Of a stretch of 64,000 bases of DNA, positions 37,106 to 57,175 are shown in pieces. Origin of the DNA: Chalara sp. BL73 (lineage: Eukaryota; Ascomycota; Leotiomycetes; Helotiales); NCBI GenBank assembly GCA_918026815.1, contig CAKJVC010000139.1, positions 124,001-188,000 of the forward strand. Reading direction: 5' to 3'. Positions within the stretch are counted from its first letter, which is position 1; each line of letters starts with the position of its first letter. A program made the translations under genes and the position numbers. A model generated the notes under the pieces. The model saw nothing but the letters and a program-made list of their open reading frames with translations. It searched no databases and was not told where the DNA came from.

Positions 37106-39041
37106 TCAGCGTTTATGTTGACTATCTCGACGAAATCTCGGCCTATTTATCGCTGGTTCACTTGAGGGAGATTCGAGATCAATATCATTTTCTGTTGTAT
37201 CAGTATGGCTAGATGCATAGTCGAAGCTCGTTTGTGGGTATTGCGTGTTGCCATAGTAATCACTCTGATTTGGATTTTGTGCCGCTGGGTACAAGTTGTT
37301 GGACGATAAAGAAGTCTGATACCCATAGCCCCCACTCGGAGTAGGACCAGTTTGGCCGTAAGACGTGTTGCTTGGCTGTTGCCAGGTTGACATCTGTACG
37401 TTAAAATTTTGATTCATGTTGCTGAGAGATGCAGGGCTTTGTGGATAGCTTGTGGAACTGGTAGAATATGTATTGGTCTGTATACGTGCATGCATTGAGT
37501 TATCCCTTGATGTGTGGCTAGGGTTCTGATAACCAGTGGCAGCTGGAAAGTAGCTAGAATAACCGGTATTACCAGTCTGATAGCTGGGGCTGGCATTCTG
37601 CCCGTAAGTACTTCCCGTAGGATAGTGTCCAGTTCCTTCAGTATAGCTCGATGTGGCACCAAAACCAATGCCACTGAGTTCAACATTCCTGGTCTGTAAA
37701 TCGTTTGGAGGAAGCTGTCCCAACTCGCCACCTCCACCTATAAAAGTATCTCTGAAATAGGCCAAGAGAGTTGCTCTAGAGCTAGAGTCTAGGTCGCCAA
37801 CTTCTTTAACTTTAACATTTGTCTCTACAGTATAAACTCGACCATAATTGACCAAAGATGGATCGCGCAGCGGTGCAGAAGACTTGACCAGTTTGACTTT
37901 TAGAGGACGCTTGGTGATACCATCAACCGGTTTAGGCTCTTGGTGACTATAGATATAGCTGTGTTCGCTAATATTTATCTGCTCCTTGAACGGCCCCTTG
38001 CCTTTATAGGACGTCACTGGAAGGCAAGTACAGCATTGATTGTCGTTGACCCCTTTGACCACAACAAAGCGTCTTATCTTCGAAAAAACTTTTGCACCGT
38101 ATGCAACTACACTCACAAATGTCGGCGTTTGATCGTTGAGCGGACCATCATATGGCTCTGTCCAGAGTGTGCTGAATACTTTGCCGACTCTGAAAAATGT
38201 TTTGAAATCCTTGTTGCGCTTTTTGTAAGAAGGATCGAGCTTTTCGGAATCTCCTTTAGTTCCACTAATATGGCGGATATTTGTAGGCGAATGAGCCGTT
38301 TTAGCGCTGTCTACTTCCGGACCATGTATACCACCATCACTTGTATGATTCGCTGGGACTGTAGTGAAAGGGTTGCTCGAAAATGGTATCGTAAACTCTT
38401 CTGCTGGAGAAAAGCCATGGGTATTCTCCTGCACTGTATTTGGAGCGTCATAATTTCCTCCTGAGCTTGTATATGTAGTGACGTATGTCTGATTTCTAAC
38501 CACTTCAGGACTTGCGCCAAAGCTTCCATATTCTTGATCATGGGTGGTGCCCGAAACTCTTGACTGACTCTGAGGGGAAATTGTATATTCGGATAGATGC
38601 TCAGTAGGGTCATCGACAGTCAAATCTCCAAATTGGTTGCTGAGATCCTGTGAAGGTAGATCAACATCAGCATCCGCTTCAGCTTCAGCCTCGGCATTGT
38701 CATCGTTTTGGGAGGATTGGTTGTAGCCACTGTGAGTATGGTATTGTGTCCCCCGTCGAGATCTGCCATGCGTTTGTGTTGTTTCGTATTGGTCATTTGG
38801 GTCATGTTCCCGATATGTCGTGCGGGGAGTTTCTCTAGTTCTTCGATTGTTAACAGAAGCTATTGACTAGCGAAGGTCGGTGGATAGATGGACTCACTCT
38901 TCATAAACCCTATTTCCATCTAAATACTTAATATTAGGAGGGCGTGACTAAGAGCAAGAGATTGTACTCACGCCTATCATGATAGAAGTATCGCCCTTGA
39001 CTGTCCTTCTTCTTCTTCTTCTTATGAGCTGAGAAAGCCAT
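37106..39041 (-). CDS. DUF6590 protein of module 1, 608 aa, three exons
   Basis: Exons 39041-38972, 38919-38898 and 38840-37106, with introns of 52 and 57 nt; the middle exon is only 22 nt. It starts MAFSAHKKKKKKDSQGRYFY, a basic head plus a W/Y-type segment. Residues about 104-235 are Ser/Thr/Gly-rich. DUF6590 spans about 236-395 (FFRVGKVFSTLWTEPYD; IRRFVVVKG; CTCLPVTSYKGKG; YTVETNVKVKEVGDLD). The last 200 residues are low-complexity and rich in Tyr, Gly, Ser, Gln and Asn (YSSYFPAATGYQNPS; GGYGYQTSL), like prion-like regions. Closest in the window to the giant gene: both share KVKEVG and lack the intron found in modules 2 and 3. Head to head with 40107. Confidence 0.8.
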
Positions 39042-40106
39042 CAGTAAGGCAAGCTGGGCTGTAGGATGTCGACTCACCATACAGAACCCGCTCTTTTATC
39101 CACCCATTTAGGGCGAACAGAATGGACGCGGCTCTGCAGATTTACCCATCGTACTCGACTGGATAACGGAGTTACCACGTCGATTGCGAAGTGGTGCCGC
39201 GAATTGGAAATGGCGGGGTATGCAATTTCGATGTCATGTGGTCTTAAGTGATATGCTGGACGCATTTCATGCTTGCATGTACACATCCATATTACTGGCT
39301 GGTGTTGTCACCTGCCCATCCTCGGTGTTGCCAGCAATATTTTGTGGCGTGGGAGACTGCTGCAGCCTGTGTGGGAAAAAAGCAGTATTCAATGCTGCGC
39401 AAGCCATCGCGCAGAAAGAGCGGCCGTTTTCGTTATGCATTGATAGATAATAATACCCATTCTTCGACAGGGAATGAAAGCTTCAGGGTTCCATTCCCCA
39501 TTCGACCCCTGAAACACCAAGATAAGTTGTGATACAGCCACAAGCTATTGGCACCAACCATTTTATAGGCGTGCTGACGCCTATCGTTCCAGACACACCA
39601 AGCAGAGCCGCAACTCCTGTCATTTTCCTTTTGAGTTCCGCTTTACCGACATCTTGGATCGACCCGGACAGAAAAGCTCTTTCCACTAAGGATGATATTC
39701 GCAATACAACGGTCGTTCGGTCGATATTGACTAATTGATTCCCTTCAGTGTCCGCGAGAATATATGCACCAAGGCTGGCGCGGCTCGTGATGTAGGTGGC
39801 CGTTGTCTACCGCTCAAGAGTCAATTTGGCTGACATCACAGCCTGCTGGACTTCGGAAGCCGTTCTCAGTCAACACACTTTCGCGAGTCAAGAAAGATAT
39901 GGCTTTGTGGGGCTTCTAATCAATACTTGCAGAAACAAATAAAGTGGTGCGAAGAATAATTTTCTTAAATAACTGATCGGACAATTTGGCACAATTGCGA
40001 GTTTGCAGATGTAAAATCTGAAACCGCAGACAAGGAGATATCTCCAAGCAGCAACTCGTGCTGCAATGGCTATGAATACTTCCAACTCAAAGATGGTCAC
40101 AGCACG
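39042..40106. promoter_or_regulatory. Divergent promoter region, module 1
   Basis: 1,065 bp between the start codons of the DUF6590 gene (-) and the coiled-coil gene (+). No coding region supported. No motif could be seen by eye that is clearly shared with the intergenic regions of modules 2 and 3. Confidence 0.5.
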
Positions 40107-41651
40107 ATGCCGAAGATCCGAGACGAGATTCTAGAGAAAGCATCAGATTCCAGTTCGGACCACAAACGCAAGCATGATCATTTCAAGTATCTGTCAGCCG
40201 GTCTTCTCAGAACACGCAGTTATCCTATACAAGCAAATCCAACCGCATCGCCATCTATTTCTTCCGATGGTGGGCGAAGCTGTGACGCTCAAGCTGATAT
40301 TCGAGCAAGAAACATCCGTGCTCGTGACCAAGTCCAAACATTACGTGCTAGAGTTGCGCGAATCCGAGCCCTTGCCATCAGAGCAAAGGATGAAGTGCAA
40401 GAATGCCGCGGTAGATATCAAAGCGCTAGCGCGCACTTCATGGGAACTGTTGACCAGTTGATGGTCCTGAACGAGGTCCAAGACTTGAAAGCGCTTCGAC
40501 CACATTACATAGAACTCCGATCTTTGCAAGATGAATTGGGTCCCCTGGAGGATAATTATGACTCCTTGCAACTTCAACTTCAGAATGAAGAGCAGAGTCT
40601 TGAGCTCGAAGAGGAAATTTTCTATCAACATATTAACCTGCCAATTAGCCAAACTCCAAACTCAGAACAGTCAACTCCAGCGTCGCCGCTGAACACCACC
40701 ATAATATTACGTCAAACAGAACCTGCAACGCCCGCAATCCAGCTTGAGCTAGATTTAGAGTACTTTCGCAAGATATCTGAAGCGGAAGTTATCAAGGAGG
40801 AACTTCAAGATCTTGAAGGTAGCAGATACAGCCTTCTAGAAGAATCCACATTTCGTCAACGTCATGGCCTAAGTCTCTCCGCTGAAAAATTAAAATTTCT
40901 TGCCGAGTTCCCAGAACAGTATCGAGCTACCTTCGAGTTACTCCAAGAACTTGAAAAGGAGATATTGGAACTCCGACAAAGGTGTTTAGTCGCCAAATTA
41001 TTTGATGAAACTGAGTATAAATATGAGGTTCGCAATACACTTGTGAACGATATATGGGACACCATACTCGACGTCACTTTTCGTTCCCCATTTAATGCAG
41101 CCGCACAACATGTTAAATACGATGCACATCCAACCAACTACCAAGATAAACACGACTATGTGAACAACTGGATACTGGATTGGGTGAAAGATTCGCCTCT
41201 TGAAGCATTGAGACTCCGAGCTTGGATATACTCCGCATGTCCTGAGATGGAGAATGAGCCGCTTGATAGTGATAGATGGTCAGAACTCGCTCTTTTGTGG
41301 TGGCATATCGATGCACTTGGGCCGCCAGTGAATACGGACGAAACACAAAAGTCAAATAATAAAACACCTGGAGATTCTAGTATTCGTCTTATTGATGGGA
41401 GCTATTTTTCGGCCGAAACTCATGACTTCTTTGATGAAACTATCATATTTGGCGGCTCACCTTCTACTCGAAAACCAAAGCTGGGAAGCGCACGAGATAC
41501 AGTCGAATCACAACCAGTTGCTGACCCTCAAGCGATTCATGAGCCACCCGCCACTAGCCTCTCTAAGAAAACATCACAATCCATAGTGGAAAAATCAGAA
41601 TCGCCAATGGAGTCTATTCAAGATGATCTTACAGCGTTGACATTGCTGTAA
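40107..41651 (+). CDS. Coiled-coil protein of module 1, 514 aa
   Basis: Single exon, ATG at 40107. After a basic, Ser-rich head (1-60) the protein is largely helical. Coiled coil 1 (about 63-175) ends in LRSLQDELGPLEDNYDSLQ (GPLED at 145-149), followed by a linker. Coiled coil 2 (about 215-310) contains EELQDLEGSRYSLLEES and ELEKEILELRQRCLVAKLFDE. A C-terminal part begins VNNWILDWVKDSPLEALRL and has a Trp-rich ELALLWWHIDALGPP. The same order (GPLED coil, second coil ending REECL/RQRCL, NxWLLD segment) occurs at 48628. No enzyme motif, membrane segment or DNA-binding domain seen. Divergent from a DUF6590 gene. Confidence 0.8.
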   Translation: MPKIRDEILEKASDSSSDHKRKHDHFKYLSAGLLRTRSYPIQANPTASPSISSDGGRSCDAQADIRARNIRARDQVQTLRARVARIRALAIRAKDEVQECRGRYQSASAHFMGTVDQLMVLNEVQDLKALRPHYIELRSLQDELGPLEDNYDSLQLQLQNEEQSLELEEEIFYQHINLPISQTPNSEQSTPASPLNTTIILRQTEPATPAIQLELDLEYFRKISEAEVIKEELQDLEGSRYSLLEESTFRQRHGLSLSAEKLKFLAEFPEQYRATFELLQELEKEILELRQRCLVAKLFDETEYKYEVRNTLVNDIWDTILDVTFRSPFNAAAQHVKYDAHPTNYQDKHDYVNNWILDWVKDSPLEALRLRAWIYSACPEMENEPLDSDRWSELALLWWHIDALGPPVNTDETQKSNNKTPGDSSIRLIDGSYFSAETHDFFDETIIFGGSPSTRKPKLGSARDTVESQPVADPQAIHEPPATSLSKKTSQSIVEKSESPMESIQDDLTALTLL

Positions 41652-43169
41652 TGACATCAACGCATCAATTCTCTTCGACACTTAACATCTAGCAGTCCGT
41701 CCCACTCTGGCACAAATCTTAATAATAGAGCCAAGTATAAATTGGCTAAGATCGTAAAACATCCAAAGACACTAGTCTCAAGGACTGCTTTTCGACTATT
41801 TGGAAGACCCATCTCCTTTTTTAGTCTCTGTATATGCCTATCTTCATTTCTGCTGTCCGCAAATTATATGAGCAGTTTCTAGTCCAGGGCACGAATGAAA
41901 TGATGGAATGCTGGTTTCAAGCTTTGCATTTGTATCTCTAGGACTCAGCTATATCTTCATGTCAGGCGTCTTAATTATGCTCTAGGCATGAATGAACTTC
42001 TGGACTTTCTTAAGGTTTATATTCTACCTGACTGTTCCTTTAACTTTAGTCATGTCTCTAGACTTCGGGTTGGTCCTTTTTTAACATCTTGACGTTCCGC
42101 GTCGTGAGATTCAGTAATTAGATTTTAAGTCTACCAGGAAAAGTTTCAATACGGGTATATAAATAACAAGATAATACATCACTGCGATCACTGTCATTGA
42201 GCCTCGTCCATCTTTAGAATACAACTATGAGTTGCCATGACCTTCGGCAAAACTGAAAATCAGATAAATTGTCTAGTTGAAATACAAGGCTGCCAAGCTC
42301 GAAGGTATGCGTCGAACGCGGCCAGAGATTCATGTGCGAGAGATCCCAATGCGCTTGCTTTTTCCTGGCCACCCACCGGCCGATGGGATGTGGGAGAGTG
42401 GGGTATGTGGCGCCAACAGATATTGGATAATGATGCTCGAGTAGTTAGGAAGCGGGTTTGTGGGGTATTATCATACAAGCTACTTGCTTTTTTGACTATG
42501 CATGTATTTGGCGCAGATACGTGTACAAGTTAGTCTTGTTGCAGAGGCGATTAGATCAATGTGGAGTAATATAAGCAGCGATTGACCCTTTTCGCGATGA
42601 CCTGCAGCAGGTGTGGTGTGTAAAGACGTGCAGATAGCGCTATTATTGTAGAACCAAGTAGCGGTCAGTCAGTGATACACTTATCAGTTCGGAATATGAT
42701 CTTATAATTGATACTCTAGAATACGGTAGGAGACACACCCATTGTGTTTGGTCCCCGCTACCTGTGACTGAAAAGAAGCAAGGTTGCGTTGCAGCAAATC
42801 CCTTTATCAGGCTACCTGTATGTGAGAGAAGAATAATGAGACCAAAAGTTTGTTCTGCTGCTTAAATATTGCTAGGATATGCGCTTTCAAGTCCCAGGAG
42901 TTTGGCGAAATAGCAATCGACAATAGTAACAAAACACTAGCTAAGCTTGATTATCTGACATTATCATAATCAATCTTAGCAGCCTTAGAAGTATTCCCGA
43001 CGGAAATGATAGCTCTACCAAAAAAAAGGTGAAAGAGACAGGAAGGAAACAGAGAGGGAGAGTCGTAAGTGGCCAGCAGGGCGTAGTGGCCGTTTGAAAT
43101 GGCGCAGACACTATAATTCATTTTGGAAGTAGGCATTCGAAAATCGCAGGCCGACGCATTCACATTCGT
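41652..43169. other. Intergenic region, no supported gene
   Basis: An ATG-initiated ORF of 98 codons at 42237-42533 (+) has no recognisable features beyond a Trp-rich stretch (WPPTGRWDVGEWGMW) and is not claimed. Nothing else seen. Confidence 0.4.
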
Positions 43170-43550
43170 CACGAAGCCTCGTATGAATTGTCCTGACGAT
43201 CATAATCATTATTCTTGTAGATTATATTTCCTAATTCTGTAGAATTGATTATTGGGTTTTGGATCCATTCAGATAACTGTCTTGAAGGGAGTGCGTAGAA
43301 AATTAGGTCAGCTCCTCGATTTTGTCCGTCACCTTCCAACTTAGACTCAATAGGGGATTTCTGTCGGTCAGGAGTTTGCCTTTGAGTAAGATTGCAGTCC
43401 ATATAAAATTGTTGCTTGTGAGCTTGTGCGATCCCCCTATAGATAACACTCACGTCATGGCATGTTTAACTGTATAGAGCTTGGCGTAATTGATGCAAGC
43501 CGCATAGTCAAGTCTATCTTGAGGAAGCTGGGAACCAATCAAAACTCTTT
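43170..43550 (-). pseudogene. Decayed DUF6590 gene fragment
   Basis: On the minus strand, about 43545-43455 reads as a chain containing LIGSQLPQDRLDY and INYAKLYTVKH. This matches the last core strands of DUF6590 in the intact copies (LNYAKIYTVEHNVKV at 46178-47045 and LNYSKLYTVEH at 53723-54116). The frame then meets a stop, and the expected continuation resumes in another frame (VIYRGIAQAHKQQF) down to 43169. No convincing upstream part of the domain was found. This looks like a fifth, broken member of the array in the same orientation as the intact ones. Confidence 0.55.
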
Positions 43551-46177
43551 TTGATTATTCTATTCTGAAGGCATTATACTTCAGCGTATCCTTCAGCATG
43601 CACCCATCTTAGTGTTGCTCGCCATTATGTGTCAGCATATGTGATGCATATTAGGCAATCAACATCATACTTTCGACGAAGTTATGTCCTTCCGTGCTTA
43701 AACTCTTCGCTCGAACGTGTGTTGAGATCTAAAGCTTCCTTAAAGGGAGTAATCATCCTAAAACGGGAAATATATGAATTCAGATCAAATGCCTTATTTG
43801 CAACAAAATTTTGTAAGATTACGTTTTTCTTCGGCTGATTAGTAGCCTATGTAGACCCATTGGATTAAATGACCTTGATTATTTATATATTACACGTCTT
43901 CAGCTAATATAGTACCATATGAAACGCGTAATTATGTACAGATGAGGCAGACATGCAATTATCCCCATTGTCCCGTCGCCCAAATCTCCCAGAACAGGGG
44001 TTCAAAAAGTTTTAATCGCGCAGCGGGTTAGTCCAGCTGTACATGGCGACAGTTACAAAACAGAGCTTTGGAGGAGGGAATTAGCCTAGCTCGAAGATGA
44101 TTTCCTCTTATATTCCAAAGAACTCGCGTGTCGCAAGATATATAACGTTGTCATCTCAACCTGTAAATTAATGCCTTGCTGATTTGCTGATTTGCTGATT
44201 TTTACACCCTTGGAGGTCCCTTACAACCTTGAAATAATCTCTTTATTCGCTTTGAGCTATCTGATTAGAGGCTCCAAAAGAAGCTATTTACCTAACTTCA
44301 ACACAATAGGAGTGCTGAGGCGCTTCAGTTGATGGCCTAATGGACATTTTGTGTGATTCGCAGTCTGATATGTCGCGCTCAGAGACATTGATATCTTCGA
44401 CCTTGAGGTAGAATATGGGGACAAACAAAATTATGCCAATAAATGGATACCACGCCTCGCTCGTGGATCTATCTGTATATCAAATAGCTAAGTCACCAGT
44501 CCGCGTAAACTATGTGTTTCTAGAACTTTTGAATCTGACTGAAAAGCTGCAGTCAAGCTCCCTGCAATTAGGACATAAATAAAGCTGGAAAATTGACAAG
44601 GTACAACTCTAGTAGGCGTACATCGCATCAACACACCATCACAACCATGAGAAAAGATGGGACTGTGTCTTTCCAATTTACACTGCCAAGCGGCATATAG
44701 ATACAGTTGGGTGTTTTGGTCTCTATTAACCGATAATAGTGCTATTACAATACACTTACAGGCCACTTCCAATATAGGTGGTACAGGGTATTTAGTAGTA
44801 TTCTCTTTAGGTTTGGGGTTCTTTCACGACACCTGTAATCCTTCTCGGCTATGTACTCCAAAGAGATTTCTTGACAACTTCACGCATGAGGGGGGCTTGA
44901 ATATCATAATTAAACGAAACAAACATCGCTGTCGCAGTATTAGTTCCTGATGTGCATGTATTACCATTATTGCCGGTTTGGAATTTCAAGAGATTGCGAG
45001 CAATAAAACTCAGACGCAGCGCGAAACCAATATAATAATTAGAGTGAGCATAGGTCATTAAGCTCTAAAGTAAGGCAAATATAAGCAAGCAGACACGCCC
45101 AGTGATTTTGGACCCCAACAGTTGCTGCCTGGTCCGCCCATTGCTAGGCAGGCTTACAACAGCAAGACCCTGTGACTCAATGATAGACATTCTTCTATCC
45201 AACTTAGTTTACATCTTAGATTCGGGACTAGTTGTCGGTGTCAGAATATCGAGTTTGCGCTACCCATCAGTGACGGATCGGATCAAAGTGCATGCTGGCA
45301 CTAGATGCCCTTCCGCTCCTTAGTTCCCGTCCTCGCTTAATAAATGGCTTCTCCGTCGGGGATCTATCATTTTGCAAGGGGCCAGGTGCAGCGGACGGAT
45401 GCGGGGAGTGCATTGCACATGCATGTTTATATGCAAGGCTGCATGGCTTTCAAGTCTTGATGCATGTGGCTGAAAACAGTATTGGATCAATGTTTGTGGG
45501 CGGTGAACAGCCTCGAGTATGCATGATCCCGAATAAGGCTTTTCCATAGTTGTTTGATGTCATGCTCATTGTGTAACAGACACAACATGAAAGAGGATGG
45601 ATGCATGAAGTCTGCATTCTTGATGGTGGGTGGCTATCTCAATTTCGTGGAGTGCCTAAGTGAGTTCTCATCCACCACATTCTTTGAAAAATGATGCCTT
45701 CATAAAGAAATTGCTTCTTTGGTGTCTTTAATATGGGGGCTATTATTCCATAAGATAGGGTTGGCATGACCAATATGAATCATTTCAATGAAGTCCGGTG
45801 TTTAGCCATCGCAATACATGATATGGATGATAACATTAAGCTTGAGGGAGAAAATCAGCGCAATCGTATATAGTAGCCAACCCATTGTTTCTTATGGCAA
45901 GGCGTTCAAATCATTGCCAAATAGCACAGCTGCTGCATGTGCCCAACCAACTTAGACTCAGAAGGCAGAACTTAAATCAGTATGAGAGCATAAAACAAAA
46001 CTGTTTTGAAAAAAAAAACCTTCGCTCGCCAGCGGACCAAAATTGCGACCAGTATCATTCACCTTTTAATGTGGTGAGAACGGCCTGCATCAAAGCAGGC
46101 CAACGTATTTGAAGACCAAACAAGACATCCCGTGACAGTGTTCCATGTTCATCGCCGATTAGGGTGCCATACTGATA
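43551..46177. other. Gene-poor region between modules 1 and 2
   Basis: No intact gene in about 2.6 kb. If the fragment at 43170-43550 was once part of a module, its coiled-coil partner should have stood here on the plus strand; no clear trace of the GPLED or NxWLLD segments was found. A short tandem repeat lies at 44176-44199. Confidence 0.45.
44176..44199. repeat. Three perfect copies of TTGCTGAT
   Basis: An 8-bp unit repeated three times in tandem in non-coding sequence. Confidence 0.8.
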
Positions 46178-47938
46178 TCAGTGTCTTCGATGATCTTTCT
46201 TCTTGCCCGACCTTCTGTCTTGGTGTTGTGCTGTCTGATTGACGTATTGCTCTTGCTCTTGCTCTTCCATCCCTGGTTCTTGTTCCTCAGTAATCTGTCC
46301 TTGATTCATGCTATCTGAATGCTGAATCTGATTTTGGCTGCTGGCGGGGAAATAGCTATTATGATACGTAGAAGCACCCCCAGCAGAGTAGTAGCCACTC
46401 CCAGATGTAGCAACATGGGGTACGTATGGATATTGGCCTGTTGGCGGTGTGAATTGAGTTGCCCCAAAGTCTGACGCCTGTATAGACGAACCAGCAGCTC
46501 CGTATTGAGACGAAGCTGGAAAGTACTGGTTATTTGTAGGCTGAGATCCATACATAGAGGATCCAGAATAATTTGATACATATGAGACCTGGTTACCTCC
46601 AAGAGATTGCGAAGCTGGAAAGTAGCTCGTAGCAGGAAATTGCTGGTATGATTGAGGCGGATACACAGCACCGCCTGCAAATGAGGAAACTGCGTTGGAG
46701 TCTGATGCTGGTCTAGGATTTCTGGACCTTGGAACTTGCATTGGTGGATGCACGTCGTTATAATCAGCGGCAAGCTGATTTACTGAGCTTTCGTGGACTT
46801 CGCCAATAAACCAGACCTTGACATTGTGCTCCACAGTGTAAATTTTGGCATAGTTCAAACGTGAATATTTATCCAGTTTATGACGTTGGCTAATAGGAGT
46901 GACTTGGATGGGCTGCCTTGTTAAGCCTTTCTCTTTTTCTCCAGCCACGTATACCGGTTTCGTGGTCGTATATATGACGGTATGGTCGTTCACGTGAACC
47001 CCTTTCTTTAGACCTCCTTGGGCGGAATATGTGTTGATTGGCCTACTGAAGGTATTAGAATTCAACAAGTATCTTTAGTTCTATAAATTGAAACTCACAA
47101 ACATAAAGAATGGCCCTGCCTTTCTCTAACTATCACAAATCTCCGCACCTTTGCAAATATTTTCTCACCATATTTATCCTGCCGCACGGAGACATCCTCT
47201 TCAGCACCCTGACTATGGTTATTATTTCCATTAGGCTCAGCCCAGAGGATTTTGAAGATCTAATGATACTGAGTTAGTATACCTATGTACTATGGCCACT
47301 TATCTAGCAGTCTTAGAACAATAAATACGATTTAGGACAACTTACCCTTCCCCAACGAAATTCATGGCTTTGATGCTTCTTATAGTCTATGGCTATAAGC
47401 AGGATATTCACTTAAGAGGATAATATATACTTACTCCGATCGAACTGTTCGTGCGTAGTTTCAGGATCTTTAGTCCGTATCAGAGTTCCAACTGGTGGCT
47501 CTGGGACAGTCTCTTCGAATGAGCTCATTCCCAGCTGGCTGAGATTTTCAGTGATGGCGTCAACAGGTGTTGTGGTATAATTTTCAGGGATGGTATATTC
47601 TGCGGTGCTTCGTGGAACGTCCACTGTGTTGACCTGTGTACGTGGAACATTTGGTTCGCTCTCAGCTGCAATATCAACATTTGTTTCAGCATCCTGATCC
47701 GTGACATTCTGAGAATAATTATATTCTACTATATTTGCAAAACCTAGTTAATATAATTTTCATGTTTAGAGTGTTTGATTGACCTACCTGCACCAGATTC
47801 GGTGTGGCGGAATTGGTAATGAAACTGTTTCTCATCGTCCCAGATCCATTCACTCCATGAATTCTCTGCCTTGCCAGTATGCTTCGCGGAGCCCTTATGA
47901 GTCGACCCTCTAGAGTGTTTTTTCCTACCTGGAAACAT
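46178..47938 (-). CDS. DUF6590 protein of module 2, 511 aa, five exons
   Basis: Exons 47938-47788, 47743-47435, 47392-47346, 47259-47099 and 47045-46178 join in frame (introns 44, 42, 86 and 53 nt). The N-terminus has a basic head and the WSEWIWDDEKQFHYQFRH segment typical of this family. DUF6590 lies at about 156-325 (EFRWGRIFKILWAEP; VRRFVIVRE; FRPINTYSAQGG; HTVIYTTTKP; LNYAKIYTVEHNVKVWFIGE). The remaining 190 residues are Tyr/Ser/Gln/Gly-rich with repeated YFPAS motifs (TSYFPASQS, NQYFPASSQ, NSYFPASSQ) and end in an acidic/Gln stretch and a basic KKKDHRRH tail. Head to head with 48628. Confidence 0.8.
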
Positions 47939-48627
47939 ATCGGTCGAAGTAGGTATTAGCTAGTTTCATTTTTCAACTATAACTTCACGGGTTGCCCCCG
48001 TGCCTTTATGGTGCTGATTGCGCATTTGAGGCTCAACTACCTCCACTCTAGTCCCGTCCTCCCCCTCCCCAACATCATATTCGCAGATGAAAGAAGCAGT
48101 CTCCTGCAGAAGAAATAAGGATGGTAAGTGGTTCGCATTCAGCCGATCCGACGCTTGTTCTGTAAAGTGGTATTCTGCAAGGCTAGGGTTGTCTCATCCT
48201 TGTTATGCTACCCAAGCAAGGGCGTGCCGCCTTATCAGGAGATTCTAAAGCCACCTTTAAATAGTTCTCTTACGCACAAGTTATGGGCGCCCTATCTGTG
48301 ATTTCGGTACCACGATCCCGCCTTTTCTTCTGCTATATATACCATGTCCTCCTATGTTGTAGTTTAGCGATCCGATGTCCATTCTTCATACTCAGCCTCA
48401 TCCACCTTCATGAGCTCCATATAGTCATCGGCAGATTTGGCGCATTTATTTTTTTTGAATTAATGATCACATTTCGTACACAAACGTTCACAACGCTTAC
48501 AAATGGGCTTTTTTTTTTTAACGCGATAGAAGCCCCTGCTAGGTCCCAAAGCCGTCTTGGCCGATGATAACTACATATTTTAATGCATCATTGGTATGCA
48601 AACTAGCAAACAGATACACGAGTAAAA
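47939..48627. promoter_or_regulatory. Divergent promoter region, module 2
   Basis: 689 bp between the two start codons. It contains a C/T-rich stretch near 48040-48075 and a TATATATA-like run near 48335-48342. No shared operator with the other modules could be identified by eye. Confidence 0.5.
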
Positions 48628-50208
48628 ATGCGCTCATCCTACTCTGCTCCAGACTTGAGATATTCTGTCGACTGGGCTAATGAACCACCATTTAATCCAT
48701 CCGTACCAATGAAACCGCATCAAGGGAAATTTGATTCGTGTGGAACTGAGAAGAGTAGGGAGGGGAATCAGAAACGTAAATCCTTTACCAACCATACCCA
48801 CGATGTAGGAACTCTGCCACGTGTAATTTCGGAAGGCCAGTCACATCGTCCATGCTCAAATGTGCCAGCTATGCTTCAGAATTCAGGGACATACTATTCC
48901 ACTCAACACACTCATTCCACCACATCTGATACTCTCGATGGCAAAGCTGCTCTATTTGATTCAGAGAATTCAATAAAACTAGATTTGCCAGCTGTTACTA
49001 TGGATTTCGGCAAAACATCCGATGCTATTCCAGTCACATTCGCCATTGAATGGGAAAACTTAAAGCAACTGCGAACAAGTATCCTTAGTCTACGATCTGA
49101 GATTCTTCAAATGCGTGCTACTTTAAGGGACAAGCAACTTGCCAAATCAAATGCAGAGGATATTCTCTTTCAATGTATATCAAAGTATGAGTTGGAGCCA
49201 AGACTGCATTCAGACAGAATGCATGAGTTACCAAAAATCATATCAGAGTTGATACAAAATTGTCAGAAAGCCAGGGATGAGTATGGTCCTCTTGAAGATG
49301 ATTGCAATATGCTTGAGAATCAGCTTAGCCAACGGGAGTTCGATCTTACAAGATTGGAAGATTCCTTCTACCACCGGTGGAGTGACCACCCAGTCAATGA
49401 TGGCCAGCGGCATACCTTTCACGATGGAAAGGAAAATTTTCCCTCAATCAGCATGGCTATAAGGCCCATTGAAAGCACTGAGGATCATCCGATGGTTACA
49501 AGGTTCTTGTCAAGATGGGGTGATCTTGAGCTACTTGAGGAAAGGCTTGTCGATGCTGAGGGAAGAATCAATGCTTTAACTACACAAAAGACAACTCGAG
49601 AAGAATATGGTTTACAATTAGATGTAGAAGATCAAGTTTGGTTAGATGACTCTCAAGGACTACTCGGTGACCTCAAGAAAGAGATTATTGAAACGGAAAC
49701 GGAGGTAGAATGGCTGAGAGAGGAATGTCTTAAAAGCGGGCTTATTGACGAGAATGGTGATCCCGTCAAAGATATTCTGAGTCAGGAGCAAAGAATATTT
49801 GCCGATGAACGAGGGATTAGCGCCGACGGAGAAGTATCAGAGTACGTAAAGTATCCTTCACTTCTACCTCGTCCGGCTACGAGAGAATACAAAACCCGCC
49901 ATCATGACCTGGACTCTGATGAGAAGGCAGGTAGAAATCCTCAGCAGATTAATGCTTGGCTTTTGGATATTCTGCAAGGCTCTGCGCTGTATGTTCTAAT
50001 ACTTGCAAGCACATTTGAGCAAGTGAGTGGCACATTCAATGATCGGAGAGCAAAGGAAGTTCTTGAAATGTGGTATAGAGATGGTACGGGTAAAGCGGGC
50101 AGAGTTTGCGGTCATGACGCCAACAGCAATGGGGTTGTGGCGAGTGTATACTCGGAGGGCTCGGAATCGCCACCCCTTCAAGAGACTATTTACTCTATCC
50201 AGCATTGA
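48628..50208 (+). CDS. Coiled-coil protein of module 2, 526 aa
   Basis: Single exon, ATG at 48628. The N-terminal 135 residues are polar and probably disordered. Coiled coil 1 (about 140-250) holds RDEYGPLEDDCNMLENQL (GPLED at 220-224) and LTRLEDSFYHRW. Coiled coil 2 (about 285-370) holds LELLEERLVDAEGRIN and TEVEWLREECLKSGLIDENG. The C-terminal part starts INAWLLDILQGSALYVL and is shorter in its aromatic motif than in the other copies. It is homologous by order and motifs to the protein at 40107. The role is unknown; a structural or scaffolding partner of the adjacent DUF6590 protein is an inference from the conserved pairing. Confidence 0.8.
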   Translation: MRSSYSAPDLRYSVDWANEPPFNPSVPMKPHQGKFDSCGTEKSREGNQKRKSFTNHTHDVGTLPRVISEGQSHRPCSNVPAMLQNSGTYYSTQHTHSTTSDTLDGKAALFDSENSIKLDLPAVTMDFGKTSDAIPVTFAIEWENLKQLRTSILSLRSEILQMRATLRDKQLAKSNAEDILFQCISKYELEPRLHSDRMHELPKIISELIQNCQKARDEYGPLEDDCNMLENQLSQREFDLTRLEDSFYHRWSDHPVNDGQRHTFHDGKENFPSISMAIRPIESTEDHPMVTRFLSRWGDLELLEERLVDAEGRINALTTQKTTREEYGLQLDVEDQVWLDDSQGLLGDLKKEIIETETEVEWLREECLKSGLIDENGDPVKDILSQEQRIFADERGISADGEVSEYVKYPSLLPRPATREYKTRHHDLDSDEKAGRNPQQINAWLLDILQGSALYVLILASTFEQVSGTFNDRRAKEVLEMWYRDGTGKAGRVCGHDANSNGVVASVYSEGSESPPLQETIYSIQH

Positions 50209-52311
50209 CTAGCCTAAGTCGTCAAACAGCAGACATAAAACATGCTCTGTGAGCATGTTCATTCTTCTTATGTAGTATAAACAAATGCAAAGAACTCAGT
50301 CTTATGTATCAAATTTCAACAACTTTGAAAGGCTGCAGGGAAGGCTCTCATATGCGATAGACCAAAAAACGTTTCTCTTCTCGGGATTATGCAGGTTGAG
50401 AAGACTTGGCTAAGATCTAAGGCTTGCCAGAACCTTTTCAGGCTCAGATCATTGCATGTGGTGTAACGAGAATTGAGCATGGGAATATACCTCGAGGAGC
50501 TTTGGTATAACACGCCTCTTATGGATGGTCCGACTGTTTGTTCTTGGATTTTCGGAATGTAGGCGTGTCTTACATCACCCTACAACTCACACTTACGAAC
50601 AGTTGAGCCTCGTCAGACGTAATATTCAACAGTCTAATTGGACAATTTCCGCATCAGTGTGGGGGTTATAAAGAGCACAACCAACCATGGCTGGCTGCTG
50701 GCAACCTCATGTATGCACTTTATCGGGCCAATGAGCAGAACAGGCTTCGTCAGTAGATGGACTGCAGATGAATTTGTGGTAATTTAGTGGCAGAAGTCGG
50801 AGCTTGTGTAACTAGAAAAAGCCTTGGCATCGGCTATATTTTAAATATAAAGTCCCAGCTTCCACGCTGTACGATTCGGGACTGTGTCGCATGTCTGTCG
50901 CGTCCAAAGCAAATCTACTCGCTGCAAGGAATCCTTCGCATTGTATTCGCCGCTTTAACATGAGGCTGCAGGCAATAACGCCCTATCAACTGAATCTTGA
51001 TTTTTTACGGCTCATGAAATTCCAACGCAATATAACATTTCCCTTCAGCCGGCTTACGATAGTACGCGGTGCTGGGCAATAGGACCTGATTCATGTTTCT
51101 CAGAACTACTGTAACAATTTTAGTTGAGATCCAATATATAATAAAACTTGAGCAAGAGGCAGAAGGGTATCCTCTAAATAAGAGGTGTATCGAGGCTGTC
51201 CAGTTCACCGCCCCACAAGCCAAGCTAGAGCTTGATATGGCCCATGCAGCCCAGTAAAATATTAAAATCCAGCGGTAAGGCAAGGCGGGCGGACCTAGGA
51301 AATACCCGAGACTAAGACAGGCCCACCTAGTTGGAGTATGCAGTAGCTCTTATTGCATTATGTTTGCTGTTCACATTCCAAAGCTCGAATACATTATCTG
51401 GTTTAATGAGAAAAGTTGCTTCATGACTTTGAGTTTCACGTTGATTGTTTGCTTGTGAGAAACTATGTGAGTCCGAGCATATGCTACAGTTTGTTGCTCT
51501 CAATGGGGAGCCATTGTTCCAGACATCCTTCTTTCAAGATGACTTGCTGCTGCTAGTCTTGGAGTTTCTGGAACTATCCTAGCAATACCCATATTGTATT
51601 CTGCTCCGAATTTTATGAATTGTATTTGGCAAGACAGGCATTATGGCACCCTTTTATTGTATCGCCCGAAGCAATAAACCCATAGAAATGGATTCGCACT
51701 TCGAGGTAGTAGTAGTTGCGTGTGATACATCCGTCAATAGTGATTATACGCTTTGAACCAGCCTTGTTTTCACTGTCCCCTGCACACTGCCAAGTTTTGA
51801 CTCAACAAATAGACTTTTTGATGCTCTCACTATCAAATGCAAAGCCATAGATGGGATTTGAGTTCCGCTGAGCGAAGTAAAGCCGAAAGTCAATAATAGT
51901 TGGGGAAATGGGAATACCAACATGCCGAGTTATAAGAAGGTTAGGTCGTACCTGCAGGTTCTGGGCGCTATCAGCAGGTGCTGAAATACGCGCCCGTTCT
52001 GTGTGATAGGGCTCTCTAATTTTCGATCACAAGCGCCAATTATGATCGTGCCAATGAGAGAGGCTGGCTTTTCTCATGCAGGGACCAAACTGTCTGAGAT
52101 GGCCTTGAAAATTCTAGATTCAGAGAAACGGGAGGCCGGGCTTTCGATACATGTTTTCCGTTGATCACACTTTCTTCTGGCTTGGCGAGGTGCGCAAGAT
52201 ATGCCATTCGACGCACACTCCATCAGAGTCCCACGTAAGGCTACTGCACATCTGCAGGGATCAAATCACCGGCAGCTGACATTCGCAAAGAAAAACAAAT
52301 CCGTAGCAATA
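50209..52311. other. Gene-poor region between modules 2 and 3
   Basis: No supported gene over about 2.1 kb. Short ORFs lack any family resemblance. It ends at the second MITE copy. Confidence 0.45.
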
Positions 52312-52744
52312 ACGTAGTTCACAAGCGAGTGGGCAAAACAAGCTCATGCACACTTTTTTTTGCATACAAAAAACGTCTGTGCATAACCGTGCACCTTTTT
52401 TAATTGTTTATATAAAATTTTATAATTTAAAATACAGTTTATCTATGCTATAAAGAAACACTATTTACAGTTTAATAGCTTTTTAATTTATATTTATTAA
52501 GATATAAAATTTGGGGGCCAAATAATCCTTGTATTTTTACATTTTACTTCATATTTTAATAACTATAAATCCTACAGCTTTAAGATTTAAAATAATACTT
52601 ATATTTAAAGTAGAAAATCTCTATTATAAATTATAAACTTTTTTATAAACAATTAAAGAAAGTGTACGGTTACGCACAGACGTTTTTTGTATGTAAAAAA
52701 AAGTGTGCATGAGCTTGTTTTGCCCACTCGCTTGTGAACTACGT
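52312..52744. mobile_element. 433-bp MITE, copy 2
   Basis: Same length, orientation and, as far as can be compared by eye, same sequence as the element at 2217-2649, including the AT-rich interior. TA flanks are present on both sides (52310-52311 and 52745-52746) while the outer flanks differ from copy 1. This proves independent insertion rather than duplication of a larger segment. Near-identity suggests recent transposition. Confidence 0.9.
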
Positions 52745-53722
52745 TACATGAATATGACTGTGATCTTTCCACATTCTCAAGACATGACCCCGCTGTCCAG
52801 CAAAGGCCGACTTACACATATTGAGGTTTGTTTTTCCCCCACGAATAGACTAGGGTGGTCTTCCGAAGGCTGATCTTACTGTTGCAAAGATCTCAAAAAG
52901 CAACGGTAGAGTAAGATTCTGACTGGCATGGCAAGTTGCGGTGTGAACCTTAGCTCAAAACACAGCCGAGCGGTCTCAGAAGATGATTGTTGCCCCCGAA
53001 GAAGCAAAGTTGACTTGAACTCTTTGAACTAGTGGTCAACAATGACCCTCACGAAAATGCCATTTCCTCACAGCAGAGGCCCAACCCAAGGTAACCATTC
53101 ATGTGTATTGTGGTATATGAAGCTGAAGATGAGTGGATGCCGTTCGTTGGGTTATGATGACTGGAGCCCGATTGACAGAAACCGATACACTTTACGTGGA
53201 ACTTCCTCATGGTCAAGCAATTGGACAGCGTTTCTTACTGTAGTTTCAATCACAGGAGTCCCAAGCGTAACTTTTGATGAGCTATTTTAGGCAACAGATC
53301 ATTACTAAAGCAGCCAGATTTGTCCTTACGTCTGCCCCAAGCACTCTCCATGTTGCTTACCTACTGTACTTCTCCATCAAGGAGTGTTCTGATATGATGC
53401 AATGCAAAGTTATTCTCCCAAAGCTTCTTATTCACCTTAAAACCAGTACTATATTGCGCTATGATATTCATACTTAATGTTTCTCTCATTTAGTCCCCTT
53501 TCCATTAAGCGAGGATCATCTCAAACTGGATCCATACCGATAATAAGTAAACGCATACACGGCTGATAGGCAATTTCGAAAGTGGCATAACTAAATAGCG
53601 GAAGATGCTGCAGACAATTAAAACCCATGGTACAATCCCCACCAACACTTTGCAGTGTAACGTATATAAATGCCGATGGCTTTGAAGTTGTGGAATTAGC
53701 TCTTTACCTGAAGGTTGCAAGG
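52745..53722. other. Intergenic region
   Basis: No supported gene. Short ORFs at 53042-53290 and 53505-53720 look like chance. Confidence 0.45.
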
Positions 53723-55146
53723 CTATCCTCGACGATGCCCTTTGCGACTACTCTGCCCATGCCTCTGTCTTGGCTTCTCAATTGGCTCGTCGCGGCGTAC
53801 GAATGAGCTTTTGTTCAGTGCAGCCATGGAACGATCCTCGACCATGCCTATATTGAGCACCCTGGAATAGTGTTCAACAGTATATAGCTTGCTATAATTA
53901 AGCCGAGAAGATGTACCCAAGTCTCCCTCTTTATATGTCGTCTCACGCTTAACTTTTATTGGCTCCTTTGAGAGGTTTTCGTAAACTTTGCTCCCATCGT
54001 CGTCCTTATACCAATACTCGTCTGGGGATTTGGAGCTAGTATATATAATAGCATGTTGCTGAACGTCTGGAAGATTACCCTTCAGGGTTGCTCGATTATT
54101 GTATGTATGAATAGGACTTAACATGTTAATGGATCACTTCAAAGAGTGCTGCCTTCTGCACAATAAGTGGTAATGTATAGACTTACCAGCAAATTGAGTT
54201 TCCATGACCATTTTGAAGTACAACATACCGTCTGATTTCGCTGAATGCTTTGCCTCCTAGCCATACTGTTTGAATCTGTTCTGAGGACACGCTTTGATCT
54301 CGTGCTGGTTCGGTCCATAGTGTAGCAAACACTCTTCCAACCTTCCAGAAGCTTCTCTGACTTTTGCCTTCGAAGACCTCATAACCTACTAAGATTAGAC
54401 TTATGTATATGTTGAGCTTGATACAACCTCACGAGCATAGAGCCCACTGGTATCTGTACTACTACCGTCATTATAAGAGCCTGTGTTTCCGCCGTAGGTA
54501 GCATCGCTTGAATTGGATGCATCATCTTGTAAAAGTTAGAATAATTTAAGTCAAGCCTGGCATATGCTAACGTACGAGTTTTGGGAGGGTATTGAGTCGT
54601 AATGCTCAAATCTGAAAAGCTCTGAATGGGAGGCGGAGGTATGACGGGTGTTGTATAGACGTCAGGTCTTACAGTGGATGCTGGAGAAATGGATCCGGAT
54701 GCTTGAGAATGAGTATTGGCATAGAGATAACCAGAACCCTCCTCGTTAGCGGGCTGTCCTGTGTTATTATATGAAGGGAAGTAAGCATTATATGGTATAG
54801 GTCTATTCGAACTGTAACCCAATGCTCCGCTGTTACTTGGTCCAGAAGTAGGCGTAGCTGTGGTATAGGTTCCAGAAGGCGGTGGAAACCCAGGAGAGAC
54901 AGAACCGAAATCTTCTGTAATTACATTAGGGCCAGGGGAGCGTGGTACATTCTGCGTGCTTTGAGGTGATTCACCAGACTGTGTGGTGTCGGGATACCGG
55001 TAATCATATTCCAGCACTCCCTGGGCGTTATACCGACTCGCATACCAAAAACCAGAAGGAGAATCAGCATCGCCATTTGTCCATATCCATTCTGACCAAG
55101 GGCTTGATAAGTCAGTAGACTTTCCTTTACTATCTTTTGGTGCCAT
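53723..55146 (-). CDS. DUF6590 protein of module 3, 419 aa, four exons
   Basis: Exons 55146-54576, 54525-54433, 54388-54187 and 54116-53723 (introns 50, 44 and 70 nt). The ATG at 55146 was chosen because the frame upstream only offers a GTG. The N-terminus MAPKDSKGK leads into SPWSEWIWTNG and YNAQGVLEYDY, the usual family opening. A Pro/Ser/Thr/Tyr-rich linker (about 70-190) contains PYNAYFPSYNN. DUF6590 fills the end of the protein, about 222-400 (FWKVGRVFATLWTEPARD; IRRYVVLQNG; CPIHTYNN; HAIIYTSSKSP; LNYSKLYTVEHYSRV). There is no Tyr-rich tail after the domain, unlike modules 1 and 2; it ends in a short basic tail. Shares the intron inside C|PIxTY with module 2. Confidence 0.8.
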
Positions 55147-56017
55147 ATTCGGCGTCCAGTCTGGATCTGGCAACCATACCACGGCGGAGTTGCGGATGCT
55201 TACACATTTCTAAACCTGGGTTTCTTGGGTTTTAAATCTCATTACTCGTTGCATCAATTGAGTATCCACCGCAGAGCCTCCTTAGAGGATCCCATTAGCC
55301 AGAATTAACAAAATTTTGTGACCATTATTCCATCTCCCGAAGCGTGAAATTCGGCAGCAGAATGGTGTACTACCTACTCAAGGAGACAGTGGCGATCGCC
55401 AATAGGATGGCTAATAATTCCGTATGGGTGGTGATGGGTGCATCGCTGCCACACAAGTAAGTAATCGTGGTCTCATCCGTTTTTCTACATCAGCCATCAG
55501 GCCTGATTGCATGGAAGCAGGATTTTGAGTAGCGCCGCTTTAAAAAGAGGCGAACGGCCCAAGGGTGAATTACTGACAGATATTATTATACCTAACCACC
55601 ACCCTCAAATTTAATTCAGACACAACATGACACAGCCTGCACAATCAGCTTCCTCTTTTGCGTCAGCGAGATTACGGTGTTACCCCTTTCGTAGTCCTCA
55701 CGCCCCTGTTGTTCCGTACACAAGTATTTAGGTACTGTCGCAGAATTGTAAGCCTATTCATACAAACCATTCATTTTTTTCAAGTATGGTAGCTAACCAT
55801 TACTTTTGTCGAGTCTGGCATGCATATCATGCCAAGGCCTCCTTGAGACAAGAGAATGCTCCCTGATAGGGTAAGTTGAGCAACATATTCGAGGCAAGGC
55901 TGAAAATAGTAACCATCATGCTAACGTAAGAAGGGTTGTTCCAATTTCTCGCCAATCGATTCCAAGTATGATGCTTCGATCAACATCCAATCTGAAGAAG
56001 ACCACCAACGGATCTCA
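55147..56017. promoter_or_regulatory. Divergent promoter region, module 3
   Basis: 871 bp between the start codons. AT-rich and C-rich patches alternate; no ORF or named site is supported. Confidence 0.5.
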
Positions 56018-57175
56018 ATGGCATCAAGAAAATCCTCAGTACCCGACCCTCCACGGTCGGAGAACAGCAAAAACAGTCATGAACCTTCAGGTGAGACTCT
56101 TTTGGAGAAGATAACTCAAGACAATGCGGACCTTTCCCATATGAAAGGCATTCTTCGAGCTTTGAAAAAACTGGGTCGAATACAGAAACGGGTGGTGGAT
56201 GCCCAAATCGATGCGCGAGAAAAGCGCCGACGAGCGGGCTACAAACGACGAGATGTCTGGAATTGTGACGCGAGCTTCATGAAAGAGCTCCAGAATTTGA
56301 TAGAGCAAGAGAAATTGAAGGGCTTCGAAAATTTGTTGAAAATGGCTGGAGATTGTCAAACTACTAGGGATGGATTGCGCCTGCTGGAAGAAGAAGGTAC
56401 GGAAGCAGAACAGCATCTCGAGGGAGAGGTTTGGAAGCTCCAGGAAGCAGAAAATTATGTTAATGATGTGTTTGAGAGAGAATTCTCATCCATGGGAGAT
56501 ATGGACTCGGTATCCTCGTCAAGCTCAGCTTCCGAGCAATTTCAATCGGAATCTGACCCCGAGGGATACATTTCAAGTGCTGTCTATCCCGACTATGCAA
56601 TAGAACATCCGATCTCTCAGCAGCAGTCAACAGCATCTTCGACGGTTACTTTTGAAACCCCTGGCCCTCGGCTCTCCACTGAAGACACTCCCATAGAACC
56701 TCAGCATCTGATGCTCTCTGGAATTCAACATACAGCTCCGTCGGCACAATACGATTCTAATTGGGAGAATGATTCAGGCATAGAAGATCTAGATCAGCTT
56801 CTTGAGCCACCAACACACAGCCTCAATCATAATCAACCTTCAAGTACAGAACGATACCCATCTCTGAGCACCGATTTTGAGACGAGAAGGGAGAGAGTGA
56901 ACAGGTGGTTACTCAACACAATACTTTTATCCCATCATGAGGCCGATCTTCTCAAAAATATACTAGCAACAGAGAATGAGGCGATGCCATCAAATTGGTC
57001 TCAACTGGTGATCGCATATTGGGAACTGGACGCAGCTGCACAGGCTGAACGGAAAACCAATCGAGCAATTCCAGTGAAGAGAACTACAATGGGTGATTTA
57101 ATGCCTTTACGAAAAGCACCGCCCCCACCACCACCAAAGTGGACAATAATGAATGGCAAAGACCATAAAAGCTGA
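56018..57175 (+). CDS. Coiled-coil protein of module 3, 385 aa
   Basis: Single exon, ATG at 56018. It is the shortest and most divergent of the three. A basic/Ser head is followed by one coiled coil (about 40-155: HMKGILRALKKLGRIQKRVV, LLEEEGTEAEQHLEGEVWKL). An acidic Ser/Pro-rich linker (160-280) replaces the second coil. The C-terminal segment VNRWLLNTILLSHHEADLL and SQLVIAYWELDAAAQAE matches the NxWLLD region of the other two. It ends in a proline run (KAPPPPPPKW). Homology rests on order, position, orientation and the C-terminal segment. Divergent from the DUF6590 gene at 53723-55146. Confidence 0.75.
   Translation: MASRKSSVPDPPRSENSKNSHEPSGETLLEKITQDNADLSHMKGILRALKKLGRIQKRVVDAQIDAREKRRRAGYKRRDVWNCDASFMKELQNLIEQEKLKGFENLLKMAGDCQTTRDGLRLLEEEGTEAEQHLEGEVWKLQEAENYVNDVFEREFSSMGDMDSVSSSSSASEQFQSESDPEGYISSAVYPDYAIEHPISQQQSTASSTVTFETPGPRLSTEDTPIEPQHLMLSGIQHTAPSAQYDSNWENDSGIEDLDQLLEPPTHSLNHNQPSSTERYPSLSTDFETRRERVNRWLLNTILLSHHEADLLKNILATENEAMPSNWSQLVIAYWELDAAAQAERKTNRAIPVKRTTMGDLMPLRKAPPPPPPKWTIMNGKDHKS

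Follow-up and report, generated by a model that had tools for sequence, protein, structure and literature searches.

MazF proteins, toxins of the MazF/PemK type (PF02452, PemK_toxin), act as dimers. For MazF-sth, PMC10893535 reports that most of the activity is lost when the residues equivalent to MazF R29 and T52 are replaced. In plants and fungi, genes of NLR systems occur as neighbouring pairs, and the plant pairs are often highly diverged and arranged head-to-head, according to PMC12258605 and PMC9815663; neither main text contains '6590' or 'MazF'. The locus described here lies in the window, a 64,000-nucleotide stretch of Chalara sp. BL73 (C118:124001-188000, in a genome of 58.7 Mb in 199 contigs), where three minus-strand genes with a DUF6590 domain (PF20233), D1 to D3, each face a plus-strand coiled-coil (CC) gene, CC1 to CC3. 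Pfam describes PF20233 as a 'Family of unknown function', and no mention of DUF6590 or PF20233 was found in the literature searched. A literature search on MazF or PemK in fungi, judged by title and start of abstract, returned nothing relevant.

The pairing at this locus and the homology within each partner family are solid. Our best explanation overall, held tentatively, is an old, loosely co-retained pair in which one partner is an RNA-acting barrel and the other a coiled-coil protein, with a mechanism that we infer as follows. The locus would be an old cluster, probably one of helotialean fungi, that keeps DUF6590 genes and genes of one coiled-coil family head-to-head. The DUF6590 domain is likely, if not proven, to be a eukaryotic derivative of the small beta-barrel of MazF/PemK type, with its catalytic Arg and Thr positions kept. 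The proteins that carry it would be barrels with disordered tails rich in Tyr, Gly, Ser, Gln and Asn and with basic C-termini, a combination that makes RNA their probable target, to be bound or cleaved. The CC protein, made from the opposite side of the shared intergenic region and presumably together with its DUF6590 neighbour, would be a scaffold or a restraint.

Head-to-head DUF6590 and coiled-coil genes

The original prediction had three minus-strand DUF6590 genes facing plus-strand coiled-coil genes, and the open reading frames (ORFs), strands and start codons bear this out. The start codons of D1 and CC1 (39041 and 40107) are 1066 bases apart, those of D2 and CC2 (47938 and 48628) 690 bases and those of D3 and CC3 (55146 and 56018) 872 bases. 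D1 (37106..39041, minus strand) has a short first exon from the ATG at 39041 and a main frame at 37106-38866; its start was placed by comparison with its closest homologue, P0004 (76% across the domain region). D2 (46178..47938, minus strand) contains introns, one of them within the domain, and the divergent D3 (53723..55146, minus strand) also has an intron within the domain. A fourth DUF6590 gene, D0 (32026..34563, minus strand), had gone uncounted in the prediction; it is an open frame of 846 amino acids (aa) with its own long C-terminal extension, is unpaired and, like D1, has no domain intron. The DUF6590 identity of D1 to D3 is confirmed, since PF20233 scores above its cut-off of 27 bits at all of them and at D0 as well: 119.9 bits for D0, 143.3 for D1 and 96.6 for D2 in a Pfam scan of the frames, and 79.2 for D3 in a genome profile search. 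That genome search recovered D2 and D3 in two pieces each (98.3 + 53.1 and 79.2 + 53.2 bits).

Each CC gene is a single open frame on the plus strand. CC1 (40107..41651) encodes 514 aa and has a homologue, P0001, at 56%. CC2 lies at 48628..50208, and CC3 (56018..57175) is the shorter and most divergent member of the family. The region between D1 and CC1 (39042..40106) is presumed, from geometry only, to be a bidirectional promoter; those between D2 and CC2 (47939..48627) and between D3 and CC3 (55147..56017) are likewise defined by geometry.

The prediction would have been abandoned had profile search detected no homology among the three CC proteins, and such homology was found. Profiles built without a given type and its close homologues recovered that type in each case, with E values of 3.9e-26 for CC1, 4.2e-16 for CC2, 1.7e-10 for CC3 and 4.1e-8 for a distant relative encoded on contig C129, in a search space of 6146 ORF pieces from the window and 13 loci. 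The C-terminal stretch of CC3 was found at E 1.3e-6 by a profile built without CC3, and in genome-wide searches CC1 and CC2 each retrieve the other with 25% identity (E 2.7e-7 and 5.7e-7). The family has a common C-terminal module, which we call the WLL module, with an invariant W, L, W and D in seven sequences. When the PDB was searched by sequence with the CC family, only three helical proteins were returned, two of them designed (best E 0.0068).

The C129 gene (C129:1030.0-1030.5k) is a common weak match of CC1 (E 0.052), CC2 (0.828) and CC3 (0.202). Searched back, its protein gave 13 matches at E ≤1, and beyond query residue 198 the only matches were CC1 (0.048), CC3 (0.149) and CC2 (0.671). 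It is like CC1 to CC3 in its C-terminal WLL module and unlike them in that its contig has no DUF6590 match in the genome search. Motifs that we take, by eye, to be C2H2-like fingers are also present in it; they have no Pfam match. The module was thus detected in four genes, three of which are head-to-head with a DUF6590 gene.

Weak resemblance of DUF6590 to MazF and PemK

Library scans covered 93 sequences, namely 91 DUF6590 homologues, the cut-out D1 domain and the frame of an unpaired DUF6590 gene on contig C185, in alignments of 54 and 39. PF02452 matched four of the 54 and four of the 39 at E ≤1, and with 8/93 was the commonest foreign Pfam match; next came DUF7130 (2/93), and every other foreign family matched one member within each set. 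The cut-out D1 domain aligned with positions 20-102 of the 109 in PF02452 (E 0.0037), and the homologue P0005 matched at E 0.0016. PHROGs agrees with this independently: phrog_1936, 'MazF-like growth inhibitor', matched six of the 54 and two of the 39 (8/93), and each other PHROG a single member. A MazF HMM scored above 3 bits with 14 of 106 DUF6590 domains, compared with two reversed and one shuffled. Scores of hhalign for DUF6590 against nine MazF proteins were 24.5 at a relaxed setting, 26.5 with all 106 domains and 26.9 with a subset of 30 sequences hand-picked as C185-like. For that subset, the highest score among 150 column shuffles was 18.3, and reversing the alignment gave 14.9; reversal in the run at 24.5 gave 12.9. 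In an alignment that is itself weak, E. coli MazF R29 and T52 pair with R62 and T81 of the D1 domain, which are conserved in 52/54 and 42/54 rows, respectively.

Several results weigh against a MazF-type origin. The best PF02452 score is 19.0 bits, and that of the D1 domain 17.9, below the Pfam cut-off of 23.1 for membership. The full-length D0, D1 and D2 frames and the C185 frame have no PemK match at E ≤1, and a whole-genome search with PF02452 yielded no candidate. No MazF family was among the NCBIfam matches of the 54 members, where two unrelated families reached two members each, and an NCBIfam scan of three proteins gave nothing at E ≤10. A search of the PDB by sequence with DUF6590 returned one chance match only (E 2.3). 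The hhalign probabilities are 11-21%, and at default settings the larger alignments align just 21 C-terminal columns. Since no score reaches the curated cut-off, DUF6590 is not filed here as a MazF family member. On balance we hold, with moderate confidence, that DUF6590 and MazF/PemK probably share a fold, and the resemblance is the most interesting new lead from these sequence comparisons, if an unproven one.

The locus could be a eukaryotic toxin-antitoxin or killer-type locus in which DUF6590 is a MazF-like RNase toxin that the CC protein neutralises, the pair favouring its own retention. The recurrent weak MazF/PemK matches, the aligned catalytic positions and the tight pairing combined with strong divergence are in keeping with this. 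We nevertheless give it hardly any credence: DUF6590 genes without a partner (D0, a copy on C59 described below and other places) are not expected of a toxin left unrestrained, a Pfam scan at E ≤1 found no MazE/AbrB antitoxin domain in CC1 to CC3, and MazF membership falls below the Pfam cut-off. It also seems improbable that DUF6590 is a large nuclear family for which a fungal lineage domesticated the MazF/PemK RNase fold and which a dedicated head-to-head CC partner controls, as a eukaryotic toxin-restraint module diversified into several pairs at this one locus.

The tails of D1 and D2 consist to about one half of Y, G, S, Q and N, and have basic stretches at their C-terminal ends. A tail motif, Y[FY]PA, was enriched (13 occurrences in 11/96 sequences, compared with about 1.5 in shuffles) and was left unused in view of its few members. 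Two DUF6590 domains, not all complete, are present in 15 of the 91 homologues. Of these 15, 13 combine a domain most similar to C185 with one most similar to D0 or D1, and either of the two may come first. Such proteins could be built-in heterodimers, and some may be fused gene models.

DUF6590 also occurs in composite frames. One open frame at C130:322-324k (L023 4169-5861) joins it to a partial Dynamin_N, and a 1681-aa mosaic frame at C59:56-61k (L020 4195-9237) contains AAA, a piece of a pyruvate kinase barrel, DUF7896 and about two thirds of a DUF6590 domain. These fusions to a GTPase piece and in an AAA mosaic hint that DUF6590 may have a place in the mobile-domain pool of fungal conflict genes. 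The C59 mosaic also matches PF17111 below the cut-off (17.8 bits), and a frame on C129 has a weak PF17111 match too. PF17111 is termed HeLo-like in PMC9815663. This HeLo-like context was set aside and weighs against our best explanation, as a genome-wide PF17111 search gave 41 matches, none within the window and the C59 and C129 frames not among them.

The same tails and two-domain proteins bear on a further explanation, in which DUF6590 is a small, non-catalytic beta-barrel adaptor on prion-like tails, the CC protein is a structural partner in nuclear or ribonucleoprotein assembly, there is no tie to defence, and clustering results from shared regulation. We regard this as possible, with some doubt. 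It accommodates the composition and basic ends of the D1 and D2 tails, and two-domain proteins that join a C185-type to a D0/D1-type domain, whichever comes first, are what a built-in heterodimer would look like. It sits less well with the conservation, in most rows, of the residues aligned with the catalytic Arg and Thr of MazF, and strong divergence and joining to a GTPase piece would be less usual for a housekeeping adaptor.

Linkage in other fungi and history of the pair

We next consider whether the two families occur together elsewhere. At least 33 CC homologues were found, three in a first search (8000 candidates scored) and 30 new ones in a second (7761 scored). CC2 is the best-scoring type for 30 of the 33 found, and no CC3-type homologue is among the at least 33 listed. 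The DUF6590 set comprises 91 homologues obtained with the D1 domain as query under a length limit. As the sign of linkage we used the longest contigs of a CC and a DUF6590 homologue being exactly equal in bases, with sizes jittered by 10% as the null. By this measure, nine of the 33 CC homologues found share a contig size with one of the 91 DUF6590 homologues; the null averaged 0.07 and never exceeded 2 in 20,000 draws. The matches rise with contig size (0/10 under 5 kb, 1/11 at 5-20 kb, 5/8 at 20-100 kb and 3/4 above), so that 8 of the 12 CC contigs of at least 20 kb match a DUF6590 contig. Two matching contigs exceed 1 Mb and are weak evidence, because they could contain a DUF6590 gene by coincidence alone.

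Both proteins are named in four of the nine matches, and the organism agrees in all four. The locus tags are consecutive in Bisporella (690361/690362) and read 009379/009367 in Cadophora sp. M221 and 3785/3780 in Oculimacula yallundae; the fourth is Halenospora varia. Among the matches listed, both D1 and CC1 have their closest homologues in Bisporella sp. PMI_857. Two of the nine linked CC homologues (P0001 and P0002) are CC1-type and are linked to close D1 relatives (P0004 and P0007), and the other seven are CC2-type, linked to DUF6590 of the D0/D1 type. Most named homologues come from genera that we take to be Leotiomycetes, with some presumed Dothideomycetes for DUF6590. Equal contig size is an indirect sign, carrying neither distance nor orientation, and to that extent it tempers the case for a partnership. 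Taken together, the contig sizes make linkage of the CC and DUF6590 families in other fungi well supported, and since relatives of both appear to share DNA stretches there, the two may work together. Direct head-to-head adjacency is shown in the window only; the consecutive tags suggest it for Bisporella. The concern that CC homologues might usually lie away from DUF6590 genes does not hold on the informative contigs, those of at least 20 kb; 24 of the 33 homologues, mostly on short contigs, speak neither for nor against it. Two DUF6590 homologues, P0021 and P0072, have an equal longest contig of 18,687 bases, which suggests that DUF6590 genes are clustered in another fungus.

The original prediction further suggested that the pair had been duplicated and kept as a unit. 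The homology within the families and their linkage elsewhere agree with this, but a strict unit is not supported. In a DUF6590 tree of 47 of the 106 domain instances, picked to keep it small, a 27-row clade (100/99) contains both D1 and the unpaired D0 and leaves out D2 and D3. A clade of D1, D2 and D3 is rejected (p 3e-6), and a grouping of D2 with D3 is not (p 0.28). The best match of D2 in its own genome is the unpaired C185 gene (36%; five own-genome domains compared). No direct repeats of at least 40 bases (seed 14) were found in 30000-60000; the modules therefore did not arise by recent copying of DNA from one another. The missing repeats and the tree rule out a simple recent tandem duplication of the pair.

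Other observations also speak against lasting partnership. For D0, nothing CC-like better than E 0.8 was found in 34564-37108. Beyond the window, DUF6590 occurs at eight places, counting one below cut-off and two fragments, and at none of them (0/8) was a CC match found within flanks of about 5 kb. D3 has been copied without CC3 to C59:512.5-513.9k, with 90.7% identity across 1425 bases. Differences between D3 and this copy lean G-to-A and C-to-T (71, compared with 30 the other way), which we read as the bias that repeat-induced mutation (RIP) would give. The copy continues in frame from an upstream open frame (L021 1894-4920, C59:510.9-513.9k), whose TAAHV and GDCG motifs we take to be trypsin-type protease-like; that frame has no Pfam match. 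A broken D1 fragment (81% across 325 bases) lies at C7:1729k (L024) and a broken D3 fragment (76% across 335 bases) at C7:1189k (L025), with no CC match in the flanks of either. Finally, no 8-mer or longer word is common to all three intergenic regions, and 7-mers are shared at no more than the expected level.

One explanation for this pattern is that two families expanded at one locus and stand head-to-head without functional partnership, their promoters shared by history only. The solitary movements of DUF6590 to C59 and C7, the unpaired D0, the lack of a common motif in the intergenic regions and the rejected D1, D2 and D3 clade all fit it. We consider it rather unlikely, as linkage of the families extends over species with strongly different proteins, and as a DUF6590 gene stands head-to-head with three of the four genes in which the CC C-terminal module was detected. 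For the co-retained pair that we prefer, there are two possible histories: an early origin of pairing followed by frequent loss, or repeated pairing and unpairing of DUF6590 genes. Retention as a unit is only loose in either case, and duplication as a unit is too simple an account.

Surroundings of the pairs and comparison with known systems

A probable decayed DUF6590 remnant with an in-frame stop lies at 43411..43524 on the minus strand (tblastn E values by query: C185 protein 0.001, D2 0.004, D3 0.010). A possible remnant of the CC C-terminal module lies at 44369..44488 on the plus strand (profile E 0.25 and 0.35; tblastn E 0.62), in fitting order and strand relative to it. Together the two could be a decayed fourth module (43.4-44.5 kb), of which the DUF6590 half is likely and the CC half too weak for a claim. 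Between modules 2 and 3, at 52310-52746, is a 437-base fold-back element with 199-base arms that are 83% complementary. It has 13 full-length copies elsewhere in the genome, 99-100% identical, one of them at 2215-2651 of the window, and is a recently active MITE-like repeat. A stretch beside D1 (36155-36446) recurs at 75% identity in one other place, C59:509431-509738, about 3 kb from the D3 copy. The flanking genes of the window look like ordinary fungal ones; from their ORFs we take them to be MFS-transporter-like (17.5-19.2 kb), RIO-kinase-like (22.1-23.8 kb) and SMC3-like (24.2-27.9 kb).

If structure were to confirm the link between DUF6590 and MazF/PemK, the family would gain its first testable activity, with named residues. 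A partner family that stays linked in other fungi would be the first candidate for a DUF6590 interactor. Should the RNA-acting reading prove true, fungi would possess a nuclear family with its origin in a bacterial conflict fold and a regulator of its own as partner.

Compared with MazF/PemK toxins, DUF6590 has recurrent weak profile matches, the collinear blocks RRFVVV/RPAVVL and CLPVTSY/CVPCTTQ and, in the weak alignment, conserved residues at the Arg and Thr positions. It differs in scoring below the cut-off, in its larger domain with an insert, in its disordered tails, in its eukaryotic host and in having no MazE-type neighbour. In type II toxin-antitoxin systems the neighbour is a MazE/AbrB antitoxin in an operon, whereas here it is a divergent CC gene. 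NLR pairs differ in their domains: a Pfam scan of seven D and CC open frames found no nucleotide-binding domain, neither NACHT nor NB-ARC, and no recognised effector domain. What the locus has in common with NLR pairs is its arrangement, with partners side by side, head-to-head as is often the case in plants, and highly diverged.

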